Assembly: GCA_015709715.1 (NCBI GenBank)
Contig: CP054184.1
Location: 3,891,001 to 3,955,000 of the forward strand
Source of the DNA: Nitrospira sp.
Lineage (GTDB): Bacteria > Nitrospirota > Nitrospiria > Nitrospirales > Nitrospiraceae
Length of the DNA stretch: 64,000 nucleotides
Reading direction: 5' to 3'
Below, in pieces: positions 22,317 to 28,154 of the stretch. A program made the position numbers and the translations under genes. Each line of letters begins with the position of its first letter. The stretch's first letter is position 1. The notes beneath the pieces are model-generated. The model searched no databases. It was not told where the DNA came from and worked only from the letters and a program-made list of their open reading frames with translations.

Positions 22317-22331
22317 CAAGGAGTGCGTTTC

Positions 22332-22526
22332 GTGCAATATTGGGTCAAAGTCGTGTTCGTCGATAATCAGGAGCTGGTCGTGAAAGATGCGATTCGCCAC
22401 ACGATTTCCGAAGACATGGAAGTTCTTGAAGTGGACTCGGCAAAAGAAGTCGTGATCATTCCCATGAAGCAGATTAAGTACATCGCCTGCGATGCCACGG
22501 TATTCGCTCAAAAATCAAAGACTTAG
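22332..22526 (+). CDS. 64-residue conserved-looking protein whose 3' end is an attachment site
   Basis: GTG 22332 has AAGGAG eight bases upstream; GTG 22323 overlaps that site and is less likely. The protein runs MQYWVKVVFVDNQELVVKDA, then ISEDMEVLEVDSAKEVVIIP and MKQIKYIACDATVFA, with a mix of beta strands and no known motif. The last five residues (QKSKT) come from the integrated element. The original end, S-R-K-S-N-T after VFA, is still readable at 28123-28176. The element thus restores the gene with a changed tail. Its stop overlaps the convergent integrase stop. Confidence 0.75.
   Translation: MQYWVKVVFVDNQELVVKDAIRHTISEDMEVLEVDSAKEVVIIPMKQIKYIACDATVFAQKSKT
22475..22507 (+). repeat. Left attachment site (33-bp direct repeat)
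   Basis: This 33-bp sequence starts TAAGTACATCGCCTGCGATG and is repeated without mismatch at 28122-28154. Here it is the end of the coding region of the 64-residue host gene, and it lies 16 bp from the integrase stop. The middle (CATCGCCTGCGATG) is a near-palindrome that could be the crossover core. Confidence 0.88.
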
Positions 22527-23719
22527 GAGTTTTCGTGGGCGTTGGTCACGGTTTTGGTCACGGTTCCAGAACCGATTTTTAACGAATCCAGCTTATCGAC
22601 CGCTTGCCGATTCCCGCCTGGAATCAGATGCCCATAGGTGTCACAGGTGATGGTAATCGACGCATGGCCAAGTTGTTCTTGGACATATTTCAGGTTCTCG
22701 CCATTCGCAATGAGTCGGCTTGCATAGGTATGTCGGACACTATGCATATCGAGTCGTCGTAGTCCCGCTTTCTCCACCATCGGAAACCACAGTTTGTACC
22801 GTAACCAATTCTCGGCCATATAACTCGGCTCCCGCCTGGTTCCGCCCAGGTTGCCTGGAAAGAGGATTTCAGGCGCTGGGTGCCCAACGGCTGCCGCCTC
22901 CAGGTCCTGTAACTCGATCCATTCCGTCAGAGCCTTCGCGAGCCCCTGCGACATGTCCACGCGCCGGGCCTTCCCGTTCTTGGGTGTGCCCAGGATTCCC
23001 CGCGACCAGTTCCGTTGCACGTAGATGGATCGGCTCTGAAAGTTCAGATCGCCCCGATGGAGTCCCAGGACCTCTCCCGCTCGTAGGCCGGTGCGAAAGA
23101 AGGTCAGGGCCATCGGGTAAAACAGCGGGCGTTCGCGTCGTATTGTCTCCAACAACAGGCCCTCCTCTTCCTGGGTGAAGATCGCGAGTTCGGATTCCTC
23201 GATGGTCGCCGGCCGTTTCAGGAGTTTGCCGGAACGGAGGGCCGGGTTGTGAGTGATCAGCCCATCTTCGACGGCTTCGGTCAACACCGCGCTGAGAGTT
23301 AACAGGGCATTGAGTGCCGTATCGAAATCCAGCCCTTTCTCAAGCAGCCCTGCGGCCCATGCTTTGATCCGTGGTCGTGAGATAGCGGACAGTTGCGAAG
23401 TCCCAAAGGCGGGGAGGGCATGTTTTCGCAATCGCGACTCGTACGTCTTGATGGTCGAAACCTTCTTGCCTCGTGCCGGTTGATTCTTGAGCCACGTCAC
23501 GAAGTAATCTTTGAGCAGGATTGATTTCGTCGTCTTCTGTTTGGGAAAGAGTTTTCCCTCTCGTGCATTGGCCTTCAACTTCCCATACAGCGTGCGTGCT
23601 TGGCTCTTGGTGTCGCACTTGTGCCACGTCTGGCGCCCCTCTTCATAGACACGCACCCACCACCCTTCCCGGCCTTTCCGCTGGGTGATGCCTCTATCCT
23701 TGCCTTCTTTTCTTGCCAC
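22523..23719 (-). CDS. Tyrosine recombinase/integrase of the first element
   Basis: GTG 23719 is preceded by AAGGAGAG, so the protein is 398 residues; the frame is open upstream but overlaps the next gene. It has an N-terminal AP2-like/arm-binding region (KGREGWWVRVYEEGRQTWHK) and a SAM-like core-binding domain (STIKTYESRLRKHALPAFG). The catalytic domain has Arg in GLRAGEVLGL, HSVRHTYASRL (H-x-x-R), LGHASITITCDTYGHL (His and the nucleophile Tyr). The gene ends 16 bp from the left attachment repeat. Its last codons (GSGTVTKTVT) contain a 27-bp sequence repeated near the other end of the element. Confidence 0.93.
   Translation of the reverse strand: MARKEGKDRGITQRKGREGWWVRVYEEGRQTWHKCDTKSQARTLYGKLKANAREGKLFPKQKTTKSILLKDYFVTWLKNQPARGKKVSTIKTYESRLRKHALPAFGTSQLSAISRPRIKAWAAGLLEKGLDFDTALNALLTLSAVLTEAVEDGLITHNPALRSGKLLKRPATIEESELAIFTQEEEGLLLETIRRERPLFYPMALTFFRTGLRAGEVLGLHRGDLNFQSRSIYVQRNWSRGILGTPKNGKARRVDMSQGLAKALTEWIELQDLEAAAVGHPAPEILFPGNLGGTRREPSYMAENWLRYKLWFPMVEKAGLRRLDMHSVRHTYASRLIANGENLKYVQEQLGHASITITCDTYGHLIPGGNRQAVDKLDSLKIGSGTVTKTVTNAHENS
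22542..22568. repeat. 27-bp repeat, left copy, in the integrase 3' end
   Basis: The sequence contains GGTCACGGTTTTGGTCACGG, itself two copies of GGTCACGGTT, and is identical to 27978-28004. It encodes the GTVTKTVT end of the integrase. It may be an arm-type integrase site, or the trace of an earlier related integrase at the other end. Confidence 0.7.
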
Positions 23720-24359
23720 GGTGGCTCTCCTTTCGTTGGTCTGCTTTGTGATGTTCTCGCCATTTGCGTGTCGCGACTCGCGTCTGACAACGAGGGCCAC
23801 AGTAGATTTGGTCAACACGAATGGCGAGGTAAATCCGTTGGCACTCTGGGCAACGGCGAATGCGCCCGGAATAGTCGACCAATAAATGAGCGAACCGATA
23901 TTCAAATTCCTTCACTTTCCGCTTTGTCGCCACAAACACACTGCCTTTGCGTTCGTCGTCGACTGGCAGCGTGACAATGATCGTGAATTGCGGGAACGTA
24001 AAGGCAGCGACGGCGGTGTCCCATAGCTTTTCCAGGCTCCCCAGGACCATCGCCTGGATCTCTTTGGCCTCTCCACGACTGGGAAGGGTGCCACGGAATC
24101 CTTCTCCTGGAATTGATCGAACGCTCCAGCCCGCCTCTGTGGCGATGTCCGCCCCCCGGCGATTGGCCACGTCATCGACAAAGCTGGCGATCTCAAACGC
24201 CAAGACCATCCATTCACTGGCCGTGAGGGTGTCCAGATCCGTCTGAATAAACTTCAGGAGCCATCCCACCTCGCCGTCTGCCGTGGTGAGAATCCTCTCT
24301 CTCGCCTTCTTCATCTCTCCGAAAAATTGGTCGTGGATTGCGACTCGATCAACCGGCAT
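23694..24359 (-). CDS. CGNR-like zinc-finger protein
   Basis: ATG 24359 follows AAGGAGTGCCCT. The 221-residue protein has a long N-terminal domain (EVGWLLKFIQTDLDTLTASE, then DDERKGSVFVATKRKVKEFE) and a C-terminal zinc-binding region: RRCPECQRIYLAIRVDQIYC then GPRCQTRVATRKWREHHK. The pattern C-x2-C, C-x3-C with a basic tail is that of CGNR-type zinc fingers, thought to bind DNA. It overlaps the integrase start by 26 bp, so the two are one transcription unit; a regulatory role for integration is an inference. Confidence 0.7.
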   Translation of the reverse strand: MPVDRVAIHDQFFGEMKKARERILTTADGEVGWLLKFIQTDLDTLTASEWMVLAFEIASFVDDVANRRGADIATEAGWSVRSIPGEGFRGTLPSRGEAKEIQAMVLGSLEKLWDTAVAAFTFPQFTIIVTLPVDDERKGSVFVATKRKVKEFEYRFAHLLVDYSGRIRRCPECQRIYLAIRVDQIYCGPRCQTRVATRKWREHHKADQRKESHRGKKRRQG

Positions 24360-24501
24360 AGGGCACTCCTTCTCCTGATGAGTGAATGAGCATCGCACTC
24401 CATCCTAGTACAAACAAAAAAAGTTAAGGCCAGCGGTAGGCGTAGAGCTGAAATCGCTTGAAGAGTGTACCTCGGTAGTGGTAATGCGTGTCAATATAGG
24501 A

Positions 24502-24525
24502 TATGCCTTAACGATATTAGGCATA
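24502..24525. promoter_or_regulatory. Inverted repeat in the divergent promoter region
   Basis: TATGCCT (24502-24508) and AGGCATA (24519-24525) form a perfect 7-bp inverted repeat with a 10-base spacer in an AT-rich 200-bp gap between the minus-strand CGNR gene and the plus-strand HTH gene. It is well placed to be an operator for the HTH protein encoded 35 bp downstream. Confidence 0.5.
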
Positions 24526-24560
24526 ACATCATGTATAGCTAATTACCAAGGAGGTGCCCG

Positions 24561-24770
24561 ATGGTCCCTAGTACAAAATTGATCACGATTCGAGAAGCGG
24601 CGGAACGGTTAGGACTCAAAGAAAGCACGATCAGGAAAGCCATCCTGAAACGGCAGATTGCCTATGTGAAGCCGTCGGTGCGTGCCGTGCGGATTCCCAT
24701 TGAGGAATTGGAACGGATTCTGTCTGCCGGTCTTCGTCCAGCCATTCCTCAAGCGGAGGCTGCCCGATGA
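24561..24770 (+). CDS. Excisionase-like helix-turn-helix protein
   Basis: The 69-residue protein shows LITIREAAERLGLKESTIRK and AILKRQIAYVKPSVRAVRIP, then IEELERIL, the MerR/excisionase winged-helix pattern of Xis-type proteins. The ATG follows AAGGAGGTG. It probably controls the element's excision and its own operon. The stop overlaps the next start (ATGA). Confidence 0.8.
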   Translation: MVPSTKLITIREAAERLGLKESTIRKAILKRQIAYVKPSVRAVRIPIEELERILSAGLRPAIPQAEAAR

Positions 24771-25480
24771 GCCGCTGGAAGGAGTTCCGGCGGGAGCCAG
24801 TCGCCGGCGAATGGACCAGGAAGCAGAAACGGGGCTATCACCGGGTGCGGTCGCTGCTCTGGTTCTGGGAGTGCCATCAGTTCCAAGTGCTTTGGGTCAC
24901 GCTGTCCACGGCAGAAGGCGGGGATGCGGAGAAGCTGACGTATCACCATAAGCAGCTGCGCCAGCGGATCGAACGCCAGCTGGGGTTTCAAGGATTGGAG
25001 TACTACCAGGTTCGAACGGAAGAAGGGCATGGCGTGCTCCATATCTTCTGGGCCTGGCGGGTGCCGGATGGGGAACGCCCTCGCCGGTTCTGGATTTCGC
25101 AGGAATGGCTGTCGTCGCAATGGCAGGCCCTCCATGGGGCTCCGGTCGTCTGGATCAAGGCCTATCAGCCCAGCCATCGGTCTCGGAATCGTCTCAGCCG
25201 CTACGTCATTAGCCAGTACGTCCAGGATCAATGCGGGTACGTGAATATGTGCTGGTCCTGGAAACGATCTCTTGGATTTCCCATCAGCCGACTGTGGGAA
25301 GAGATGCGGCACCAATGGTCCACCAGGAATGCCTATCGCCGGATCAGGGGCGAAATCGAAATCCCTCGAATCGTGTTCATTAAGACCTGGGAGGATCTGC
25401 TCTCGGGGCATCCGATTTGGTTTAGTGGCACCATTCTGCAATTGGTGCTTGGGAAGGGACTGGTCTATCAAGAGGTGTGA
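24767..25480 (+). CDS. Possible replication initiator (degenerate HUH-like)
   Basis: The 237-residue protein is rich in Trp, Arg and Tyr. Three stretches recall rolling-circle Rep proteins: FQVLWVTLSTAEGGDAEKLT (first strand); YYQVRTEEGHGVLHIFWAWR, which lines up with the E-x-x-x-G-x-x-H-x-H strand though the second His of the HUH is Phe; and SRLSRYVISQYVQDQCGYVN, which resembles the Tyr-containing helix. The missing His means the assignment is weak. It is translationally coupled to the HTH gene, and GC-rich hairpins that could be an origin lie 450 bp downstream. Confidence 0.45.
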   Translation: MSRWKEFRREPVAGEWTRKQKRGYHRVRSLLWFWECHQFQVLWVTLSTAEGGDAEKLTYHHKQLRQRIERQLGFQGLEYYQVRTEEGHGVLHIFWAWRVPDGERPRRFWISQEWLSSQWQALHGAPVVWIKAYQPSHRSRNRLSRYVISQYVQDQCGYVNMCWSWKRSLGFPISRLWEEMRHQWSTRNAYRRIRGEIEIPRIVFIKTWEDLLSGHPIWFSGTILQLVLGKGLVYQEV

Positions 25481-25482
25481 GG

Positions 25483-25725
25483 ATGATCTGGCATCGATGC
25501 AGCCTGAAGCAGCCAAGCCTGTTCGGTCCAGCCTGTTGCGGACGGGAAGCGACCACCTATGATCGTGCGCGAAAAGCGTGGCTCTGTCATGAGCATACGA
25601 AGGAACGGCTCTGCGAGTTATGTCAATTTGAGCAAGCGTGGGTACGGCTTTTTAATAGGGAGCATGACGTCACATGCGAAATCTGGCTCTGTATCGACTG
25701 TGCGGGACTGACGGGGCGACGGTGA
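25483..25725 (+). CDS. Small cysteine-rich protein
   Basis: The 80-residue product has paired cysteines in three places: PACCGRE, HTKERLCELCQFEQAW, and TCEIWLCIDCAGLTGRR. This suggests one or two zinc sites of the zinc-ribbon type. ATG 25483 lies three bases after the preceding stop, with GTGAGG just upstream. It may assist the Rep-like protein, but the role is unknown. Confidence 0.6.
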   Translation: MIWHRCSLKQPSLFGPACCGREATTYDRARKAWLCHEHTKERLCELCQFEQAWVRLFNREHDVTCEIWLCIDCAGLTGRR

Positions 25726-26147
25726 AACACTCTAATCAATTTCTCCCTGTCACCCGTCCCGTATCCTTCACGGGTGAGAGGGAACGATGCGCCGTCTTAT
25801 GCGAGGCGGCGATGCCTCAGCTTGGCCGCCGTTCTCGTCTATTGATGGTTACAGCAGCGGGAAGAGGGAAGGGATACTGAAACCATGCGGAGAATTAAAC
25901 GCAATGATTCCGCCCACCGAGGCCGCCCGGCCGTTCCGGACCACTGGACCGGACGGCCGGGGGGATCGGGGGCGCAGCCCCCGCTTCACTTGATCTAGAT
26001 GGTCAAAGTAGGACTGCAAGGTTGGTGAACAATGCTTTGAGTGTCAGGTTTTTGCCTCACTTGCAACTACGAAAAGTCATGTTATCGTCGACCTAAGCCC
26101 ATGGTGTTAGCGGAGGTTGGCATATCCTCCTAGAAAGGAGACACACG
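25726..26147 (+). other. Non-coding stretch with two GC-rich hairpins
   Basis: No supported gene lies in these 420 bases. An inverted repeat joins 25927-25939 (CCGGCCGTTCCGG) and 25949-25960 (CCGGACGGCCGG), with one base less on the right arm. A second hairpin follows at 25967-25983 (CGGGGGC, GCA loop, GCCCCCG). The last 100 bases are AT-richer and probably hold the promoter of the next gene, which has AAAGGAG before its ATG. Confidence 0.6.
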
Positions 26148-27011
26148 ATGTTAAAAGAGTTGGAGTTTCGATGGAAGCAACGGCGGTTGTCTCGGCAATA
26201 TCACCGACTCATGGAGAGAGAATTGAATGCTAGACGGCGAGAAGAGATATGGTGGGAATATTCTGACGAATACAATGAACTTCTCACGGAGCGCAAACTT
26301 TACCAGGACAGCATGCTACTCAGTACGGCAGTCCGAATGAGACTGCCTGTTCCGGTCATATGTGATAGCGCCGGAGCCTTAACCCGTGCCTGGAGGAGGG
26401 ACTATGCAGGTCGTTTGCTGATGACGGAGAAGGCCTTTTGTGAGTTGCGACAAGAAATTCGAAGGAAACGGCGGTTATATCGTTTTGACTTTTTCCAATG
26501 GGTGAACTTTTTGAAGTTCCTGGTTGTAACTGCTGCATTGATCGTAGAGCCACCTGTTTCGTATGGTCTAACTGTCGATGAATGGCTGAAGACTCAAGAC
26601 AAAGCGGAAACTGACAAAATTGAAATTTCTGTACGGTATGATAAGGACAAATGTCGAGTTAACGTTGAAATGAAGGGAAACGCTATTCAATATCTTGAAG
26701 TTTTGGAAAAGGCGGAGAGAAAAACGCTGCTGGTATCCATTCACAATAGAAGCAAACATACTTCAGCAAAAGTTAAGTGGTCACTAGCGGTGCGTCGCAA
26801 AGGACATAGCGATGATTTAACTGACTACCATGAACTTCCGCCTAATCAGCAGTTGGAATTCAAGCGGAGTAATGCATTCGCGAATGATAAAATCCTGCTG
26901 CCAGGTGAATCTGATGAACAATGCTACGATCTGCCACACATGTCAGGCGGCTATTCACCAGCAGATCTCGTTTACTCAGTGAAATCAAAAAGTGTCGATT
27001 TTATCAAATAG
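26148..27011 (+). CDS. Unknown cargo protein with one membrane segment
   Basis: The 287-residue protein is coded in visibly more AT-rich DNA than the core genes. The N-terminal 115 residues are strongly basic and helical (KQRRLSRQYHRLMERELNAR). A hydrophobic segment at about 123-140 (VNFLKFLVVTAALIVE) could span the membrane. The C-terminal 140 residues look beta-rich (VEMKGNAIQYLEVLEKAERK, KVKWSLAVRRKGHSDDL), like a ligand-binding domain. I recognise no family. It lies 100 bp upstream of the PLD-like gene and the two may form a cargo module. Confidence 0.6.
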   Translation: MLKELEFRWKQRRLSRQYHRLMERELNARRREEIWWEYSDEYNELLTERKLYQDSMLLSTAVRMRLPVPVICDSAGALTRAWRRDYAGRLLMTEKAFCELRQEIRRKRRLYRFDFFQWVNFLKFLVVTAALIVEPPVSYGLTVDEWLKTQDKAETDKIEISVRYDKDKCRVNVEMKGNAIQYLEVLEKAERKTLLVSIHNRSKHTSAKVKWSLAVRRKGHSDDLTDYHELPPNQQLEFKRSNAFANDKILLPGESDEQCYDLPHMSGGYSPADLVYSVKSKSVDFIK

Positions 27012-27112
27012 CACCGCTATTTTGTCTTGATTGCCAGCTGGCGCAAACTCCCTCGTCTAGTGTCCCCATCGAACAGCCACAGACTGGCAGTGTTAGATTT
27101 TAGGAGATGCTG

Positions 27113-27766
27113 ATGAGCCACAACGACTGTAAAACTTATCGGGAGGTTCTTCAGCGCTACAACGAGTTGATGCGGGATTATGAGATGTTTTTGTCACAAT
27201 TAGAGGAGGCAGATTTGGAGAACTACTGGCTCCCGGCGATAATCCCGCACAGAAGCATGCTCTATATTGAGCGGCGTTGTGAGTTTGCATCTGACGGCGA
27301 GGTTTTACGCTTTCTCAGTGTTCCTGGCCAGCGAGATATTGGTTTAAAGGAACTCCGAGATTTTACGAGAGAAGCCAAATCCCTCATGATCATTGATCCG
27401 TACATTTTCTCAGTAGAAAAGGAACAGGCGGAGCGTTTCGCTAAGGACCTTATGGAATCGGCTCGAGTTGGCGGACAATGGCTAGAACAGATTCATTTTG
27501 TCCATGATCCTCGTCATACAAGGAGTGGTGTTAAGGGGTGCATTGAACAGCGCTTGAAGAAGAAGCGTATCCGTATGACAGATAAACCCACGACCGAAAT
27601 ACACGACCGAGTTTGGATCGCAGATCGCCAGCGTGCCATAGTTGTTGGGACATCGCTGAACGGCATCGGCAAAAGGGCAGCGTTCCTACTCCCACTGCCT
27701 GACTGCGACTTAATGGCATTATTAGAGTTTTTGGATCAAAGGGCCTTGTCACGCGCGCCAAGATGA
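27113..27766 (+). CDS. Half-length phospholipase D-like protein
   Basis: ATG 27113 has TAGGAG six bases upstream; ATG 27107 overlaps that site. The 217-residue protein ends with TEIHDRVWIADRQRAIVVGT and SLNGIGKRAAFLLPLPDCDL, close to the single HKD-type half-domain of small PLD-like proteins (I-H-D-R-x-x-x-x-D then G-x-S-L-N-G-I-G-K). The Lys of HKD is Arg here. The middle has LMIIDPYIFSVEKEQAERF, another family stretch. Proteins of this form occur in mobile islands, sometimes with defence genes. A nuclease or phosphodiesterase activity is possible but not shown. Confidence 0.6.
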   Translation: MSHNDCKTYREVLQRYNELMRDYEMFLSQLEEADLENYWLPAIIPHRSMLYIERRCEFASDGEVLRFLSVPGQRDIGLKELRDFTREAKSLMIIDPYIFSVEKEQAERFAKDLMESARVGGQWLEQIHFVHDPRHTRSGVKGCIEQRLKKKRIRMTDKPTTEIHDRVWIADRQRAIVVGTSLNGIGKRAAFLLPLPDCDLMALLEFLDQRALSRAPR

Positions 27767-28121
27767 CCGAATGATCGGCCTGGTCCGCCGGCGCGCCAAG
27801 TGAGGAATCAGGATTCTTGATCACAACTTAAACCTATGGAACGGGCTCGCATTTTTTTAAGCGGTTCACCGAGCCCCAGTCACGACCTAGTGCACTCTAA
27901 TCTCACGGTTCGTAAAGGATAAAGTGCGTGGACCATCCCGTAATTCTAGAGATTGTCCTGATGTTCTAAGTAGTTTCTTGGTCACGGTTTTGGTCACGGT
28001 TCCAGGTCGAATTTGGTCATAAATGGTCGCAACCGAGTCGGAACGGTGATGGCCACTTTCTCTTTATATTTCATGGACTAGCGCGATAAATCGCAGTTAG
28101 TCGCAATTTGGGACTTTCGAA
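27767..28121. other. Right end of the element: no gene, integrase-like remnant
   Basis: No open gene is supported. On the minus strand, the codons around 27978-28060 read SDSVATIYDQIRPGTVTKTV, which ends like the integrase at the left end and may be the eroded 3' end of an older integrase. The 27-bp repeat lies within it, followed by the right attachment repeat. Confidence 0.5.
27978..28004. repeat. 27-bp repeat, right copy
   Basis: It is identical to 22542-22568 and lies 118 bp inside the right attachment repeat, whereas the left copy lies 35 bp inside the left one. The two are in the same orientation, which fits integrase arm sites or a lost second integrase. Confidence 0.7.
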
Positions 28122-28154
28122 TAAGTACATCGCCTGCGATGCCACGGTATTCGC
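28122..28154 (+). repeat. Right attachment site (33-bp direct repeat)
   Basis: Perfect copy of 22475-22507. It is followed directly by the displaced end of the host gene, so this side keeps the ancestral chromosome sequence. Confidence 0.88.

Follow-up and report, generated by a model that had tools for sequence, protein, structure and literature searches.

Two adjacent AT-rich genes in a Nitrospira genome raise the question of how they are carried and what they are carried for. The window, i.e., the whole stretch of DNA that was analysed, comprises 64,000 nucleotides, and all positions given below refer to it. An earlier note had described the genes, here called P1 and P2, as a foreign pair (26148-27766) in the cargo position of an integrative element and had connected them with phage defence. 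Here we report the element, its relatives in the genus, and the features of the pair. Sequence comparisons suggest that P1 and P2 may form a two-gene defence or conflict module, a reading to which we give a probability of about 0.5, so that the earlier interpretation is supported in part; the element family is a more solid finding than the mechanism of the pair.

An integrative element at the 3' end of a small gene

The pair lies in a 5.68-kb integrative element (22472-28154) flanked by 36-bp direct repeats, which were 97% identical in a repeat search. The features of the element are as follows (strand given where assigned).

22472-22507: attL, 36-bp direct repeat, within the 3' end of small gene 22323-22526
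22523-23905, minus strand: tyrosine integrase (Pfam Phage_integrase 3.8e-23, phrog_1 1.2e-65)
22542-22578: putative left arm-type repeat TTGGTCACGGTTTTGGTCACGGTTCCAG, located where the integrase gene ends; its partner is 27978-28014
23694-24398, minus strand: 234-aa protein with a C-terminal Cys-rich (Zn-type) region, overlapping the integrase start; common to sister elements
24561-24770, plus strand: HTH_17 excisionase/regulator-like protein (Pfam HTH_17 1.4e-8), 90-97% identical in sisters
24767-25480, plus strand: Rep-like protein of 237 aa, a possible HUH-type initiator, with 96-100% identity in most sisters
25477-25725, plus strand: 82-aa Cys-rich core protein (ORF), common to sister elements
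25905-26014, plus strand: hairpin block ending CTTGAT..ATGGTCAAAGTAG; in all sisters, conservation ends with this block and the cargo follows
26148-27011, plus strand: P1, 287 aa
27107-27766, plus strand: P2, 219 aa, start probably at 27113 (217 aa)
27978-28014: putative right arm-type repeat, partner of 22542-22578
28119-28154: attR, 36-bp direct repeat

The integrase gene adjoins the att direct repeats at the 3' end of a gene, and relatives have empty sites: the target gene (22323-22526) is free of inserts in the congeners G244, G141 and G169, and an element occupies the same site in G669, G123, G094 and G115. The paired repeats just inside each element end probably serve as arm-type sites. 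Tandem TTGGTCACGG repeats, present in these pairs at both ends, coincide with the final integrase codons (VTKTVTN), and several sister integrases terminate in the same TTGGTCACGG repeat or in a TCCCGGTTTTAC-type repeat.

All aligned copies of the Rep-like protein have kept YVISQYV and GVLHIFWAW, which are candidate motifs of an HUH-type protein, with only one His of the HUH present. The protein had no profile match in Pfam and no match in the PDB, and none of the core proteins (Rep-like, 82-aa Cys-rich and 234-aa Zn-type) had a convincing Pfam, PHROG or NCBIfam match. The hairpin block folds better than shuffled sequence (z -3.25), and its CTTGAT is presumably similar to the nick sequence of phiX174/pC194-type initiators. 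Because profile matches are lacking, the block is kept as a candidate rolling-circle replication origin.

Sister elements and their exchangeable cargo

About 30 related copies of the element are present in the genus and have in common the Rep-like gene, the small Zn-type gene and the hairpin. Among 295 genomes of the phylum, 15 had matches to the Rep-like protein; almost all of these belong to the genus of the window, and this genome has six matches (one a relic). In all, 36 Rep-like loci were retrieved for comparison. The usual order is integrase, 234-aa Zn-type protein, HTH protein, Rep-like protein, 82-aa Cys-rich protein, hairpin block, cargo, arm repeat and att. Sister integrases are merely 30-92% identical to that of the window (tblastn), and sister att sites, as judged from the sequence, are usually 45-48 bp of tRNA 3' ends; integrase modules and core have therefore been exchanged independently. 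The sisters L037-L062 include three loci on one contig (G000:C1:520000-533000, 1536000-1549000 and 1903500-1916500). A second group (L040, L063-L067) has a Rep-like protein of 82-87% identity and no similar integrase.

Homology of the sisters to the window ends at the foot of the hairpin (~26014), where different cargo follows, and the stretch from 26100 to ~27900 was matched in no sister element. Sensor genes lie between core and hairpin in L038, L041, L043 and L045, and the last cargo still starts at the hairpin. Throughout L037-L072 the hairpin with CTTGAT was always located at the junction to variable cargo, with one hairpin per element in the window's genome. Solo hairpins acting as transposon ends were considered and rejected for this genome, in which each of the six hairpins has a Rep gene, full or relic, next to it.

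With the help of att repeats, 21 elements were delimited: the window's own, and 20 sisters that represent 18 distinct cargo sets. Their cargo has a G + C content of 46-53%, compared with 55-58% in the cores, so the AT-rich look of P1-P2 is a general property of the slot. With att repeats, an integrase and some 30 sisters with interchangeable cargo in the slot, the cargo position attributed to the pair is confirmed. It is quite unlikely that the hairpin is itself a cassette-capture site, at which the Rep-like endonuclease would act and new cargo would be joined at the foot, P1-P2 being one captured, undescribed defence module. Site-specific capture was not accepted on the sharp boundary alone, since a conserved origin beside free cargo accounts for that boundary.

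Twenty sister cargo proteins, picked partly for their large size, were scanned singly against PADLOC. Nine of them, from 7 of the 18 cargo sets, matched anti-phage families at E<=1e-10; the families were SIR2, Upx, OLD/AAA_15, Abi_alpha, RelA/SpoT type, and AAA_13 plus PD-DExK. The cargo concerned, together with the next match after the nine (L055), is listed here.

L037: PDC-S06 and a NucC-like PD-DExK nuclease
L038: AbiLi/AriA-type AAA (AAA/DUF4276); also a two-component system
L039: SIR2 PDC-S65 and PDC-M63A
L046: Upx (2.6e-151)
L050: OLD/AriA-type AAA_15
L051: Abi_alpha PDC-S47
L052: RelA/SpoT PDC-S33
L055: HSDR_N/PDC-S02 (1.5e-10)

At E<=1e-5, 47 sister cargo proteins matched 111 PADLOC models and 52 flank proteins of the same loci matched 16, counts that overstate the difference because the ATPase models are redundant. 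The flank matches were mostly to ATPase or mads models, and several of the best cargo matches were near full-length and specific. The elements thus form a defence-carrying family, with the same core and different defence cargo in one slot. This multi-copy family of small tyrosine-integrase elements would have had the slot after the hairpin repeatedly refilled with foreign modules, many of them anti-phage. Two large orphan cargo proteins (L058, 1344 aa; L041, 409 aa) may be undescribed defence genes.

The abundance of defence genes in the sister slots (7/18 cargo sets, as against few matches in the matched flanks) supports the proposed defence role of P1-P2 by association, and it is weakened by those sister cargo sets, about half of the total, that lack a strong defence match. 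Some of the latter are plainly metabolic or sensory, and the ordinary cargo includes a fructose-bisphosphatase (L049), a TauE protein with a GDSL hydrolase (L062), and the two-component system of L038 and its relatives. Such genes would be in line with P1-P2 as ordinary accessory cargo for envelope maintenance, stress or lipid metabolism, with P2 binding an anionic lipid and P1 placing it at the envelope. We regard this explanation as possible but doubtful, as it has to contend with the strong defence matches in the seven cargo sets and with a patchy distribution (1/295 phylum genomes), which is typical of horizontally moved conflict genes.

Inspection by eye also revealed a near-identical RelBE/YafQ-like pair before the right end of L048, L056, L057 and L060, the other cargo of which differs; it is possibly an addiction module of the element family. 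Its presence in the slot of four sisters, and up to five other element copies or relics in the window's genome, would suit a role of P1-P2 in conflict between elements, in which the pair would keep its own element stable (addiction) or keep sisters out, and phages would not be its target; the envelope is where P1 could act. This is unlikely, as neither P1 nor P2 matched a toxin or antitoxin family in Pfam, PADLOC, PHROG and NCBIfam-type profile searches, and the coexistence of several copies means that exclusion is at best incomplete.

The P1-P2 gene pair

Both open reading frames are present, and their foreign character was borne out: the G + C content at third codon positions is 0.44 in P1 and 0.52 in P2, compared with 0.62-0.72 for the core of the element and 0.73-0.75 for genes of the host. 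Overall, the 2.4-kb slot has 48% G + C, the core 56% and the upstream region ~61%. The ATG of P1 (26148) is preceded by a ribosome-binding site (AAGGAG, 26135-26140). For P2, an AGGAG at 27102-27106 is located six bases before the ATG at 27113 and fits this start better than that at 27107, so that P2 probably has 217 aa and not 219. The two genes presumably form an operon; a consensus scan found no P1-P2 promoter above chance. PADLOC yielded no convincing match to a known defence system (best for P2, NsnC at 1.3e-3 over part of the model; none for P1), and nothing direct on similar elements or on a pair of this kind turned up in literature searches.

P1 has a basic helical N-terminal part, one hydrophobic stretch, and a C-terminal part predicted to be probably beta-rich. 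The hydrophobic stretch (residues 115-133) is a single 19-residue window with adjacent basic residues; its Kyte-Doolittle score of 1.84 makes it a marginal membrane helix, and the earlier designation of P1 as a membrane protein is retained with that qualification. The positive-inside rule would place the N-terminus in the cytoplasm. The AlphaFold model is of low confidence (pLDDT 41). P1 also has a stretch (LTEK...LR..IR) that may resemble one in a family of small membrane proteins. No homologue of P1 was found in the 295 phylum genomes, in plasmids, or in phages or viral contigs. Three sets of candidate matches were discarded: one in G049 falls in a TsaE-like gene; weak matches to the N-terminus among 229 gammaproteobacterial genomes were due to chance, with a transposase-like ORF and short broken frames at the loci; and an Ensifer match (E 1) is antisense to longer ORFs with the look of real genes. 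With P1 having no detectable homologue and its role as a partner no confident structure, the earlier statement that the pair itself is a form seen in phage-defence islands was not upheld.

P2 contains H166-D-R168-x4-D173 followed by G181-T-S-L-N, an HKD motif with R for K. The signature of P2 is HDRx4D...GTSxNGIGK, and that of the family is an invariant D-x-Y ... HDR ... S ... G, with D97, Y99, H166, D167, R168, S183 and G188 conserved in all 11 aligned sequences (six intact P2 members and five ORF6N proteins). The Arg variant of HKD noted earlier is therefore present, but as it is invariant in 11/11 aligned relatives it is a rule of the family and no sign of a decayed enzyme. P2 does not conform to the catalytic motif HxKx4D(x6)G(S/T)xxN: the Lys is replaced by Arg throughout, and the third HKD residue (Asp) and the Asn vary within the family. 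With an Asp that varies in this way, P2 does not qualify as an active HKD phospholipase. It had no PLDc match in Pfam.

These data also bear on the view that the cargo is decaying or non-functional, in which case P2 would be the remnant of a dead PLD and the ORF of P1 would be neutral. The replaced Lys, the orphan status of P1 and the promoter scan would agree with it, but the invariant Arg, the intactness of both ORFs with their good ribosome-binding sites, and a 287-codon open frame at 45% G + C, which is unlikely by chance, make decay very unlikely.

The fold of P2 was approached by profile comparisons. The best Pfam match was MIT_C (PF16565; E 0.014, 15.8 bits, below the gathering threshold of 25 bits), and the best PDB match was MITD1 (E 0.007), with DPY and HDR aligned in register. 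P2 also matched the VPA1262 N-terminal domain (E 1.7e-4) and the C-terminal domain of ORF6N proteins (hhalign probability 91%, E 1e-6), one of which itself matches PLDc_2 at 0.008. Each of these links is weak, and they agree with one another. The AlphaFold model of P2 is poor (pLDDT 45), and a combined A6 profile gave chance-level matches only against the PDB. P2 would be a cytoplasmic single-motif PLD-like protein. The PLD-like domain of MITD1 is non-catalytic and binds membranes, and this nearest solved relative of P2 favours the ordinary-cargo explanation.

Relatives of P2 are sparse. Six homologues were found, none of them in phages or viral contigs; they are listed here with an ORF6N relative.

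L004, Burkholderiaceae MAG: HNH nuclease gene downstream
L005, Salinivibrio plasmid: alone among housekeeping genes
L006, Rhizobium: copy interrupted by a transposase
L073, Rhizobium Q54: HNH nuclease gene downstream
L074, Pannonibacter: follows repABC, with an Eco57I-type methylase and a PLD-family gene a few genes away
L108, gammaproteobacterium: alone among housekeeping genes
L110, ORF6N relative: between apparent mod and res genes of a type III R-M operon (read from the sequence)

The neighbourhood check recommended by the earlier note thus had a divided outcome. The two homologues (2/6) that precede HNH genes and the ORF6N relative in the type III R-M operon support the defence reading, and one further homologue has restriction genes nearby on a plasmid; others occur singly amid housekeeping genes, and L005 and L108 in this way favour ordinary cargo. 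No nuclease or defence gene is immediately adjacent in L005, L074 and L108. The defence reading is further weakened by the weak direct PADLOC matches of P2 and the orphan status of P1. The HNH nuclease beside the P2 homologue in L073 (6993-7844) has a beta-rich C-terminal extension that is possibly comparable to the C-terminal part of P1.

For a defence or conflict module, the following mechanism can be put forward tentatively. P1 would tether P2 to the inner membrane, with its basic helical part inside and its beta domain on the other side; contact between the two proteins is suggested by their adjacency. By analogy with other PLD proteins that have a single motif, P2 possibly forms a homodimer, and its D-x-Y and HDR residues would line a pocket for the binding or cleavage of a phosphodiester. 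The ligand could be nucleic acid of a phage or, as for MITD1, an anionic lipid.

Significance and comparison with known systems

Within a single genus, the sister elements supply a catalogue of exchangeable cargo sets, many with recognised defence genes and several with orphans. The slot is therefore a source of candidate defence systems through guilt by association, and P1-P2 is among the smallest of them. Through the P2 family (D-x-Y ... HDR), conflict genes of bacteria are connected with ORF6N proteins and, weakly, with a membrane-remodelling protein of eukaryotes.

Like P2, the ORF6N proteins (L081, L082, L084, L086, L087) have a C-terminal D-x-Y ... HDRFxIxD ... G(A/T)SxxxxGKK; unlike them, P2 has no ORF6N DNA-binding domain, its N-terminus is short and unrelated, and its partner is encoded by a separate gene. 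MITD1 is a eukaryotic protein that acts in cytokinesis. Its C-terminal PLD-like domain (MIT_C, PDB 4a5z/2ymb) shares DPY and HDR at the same spacing with P2, which in turn has no MIT domain. In the VPA1262 N-terminal domain (NCBIfam NF040700), the C-terminal ~60 residues align with residues 153-208 of P2 (E 1.7e-4); the profile has 478 positions, its proteins are much longer than P2, and P2 scored 20.5 against a cut-off of 80. VPA1262 is located in VPaI-6, an integrase-bearing genomic island (PMC1464126). The HxRx4D...GTSxN of P2 resembles the HxKx4D...GSxxN of the canonical HKD PLD/nuclease superfamily (BfiI, Nuc), from which the P2 family differs in having R for K throughout and an Asp that is not conserved.

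P4-like satellites and PICIs are cargo-carrying integrative elements or satellites with defence hotspots. The window element differs from them in that its core has no convincing profile match and no packaging or structural genes were seen in it; it shares with them its small size, a tyrosine integrase, att sites at the 3' ends of tRNAs or genes, and one exchangeable, defence-rich slot.
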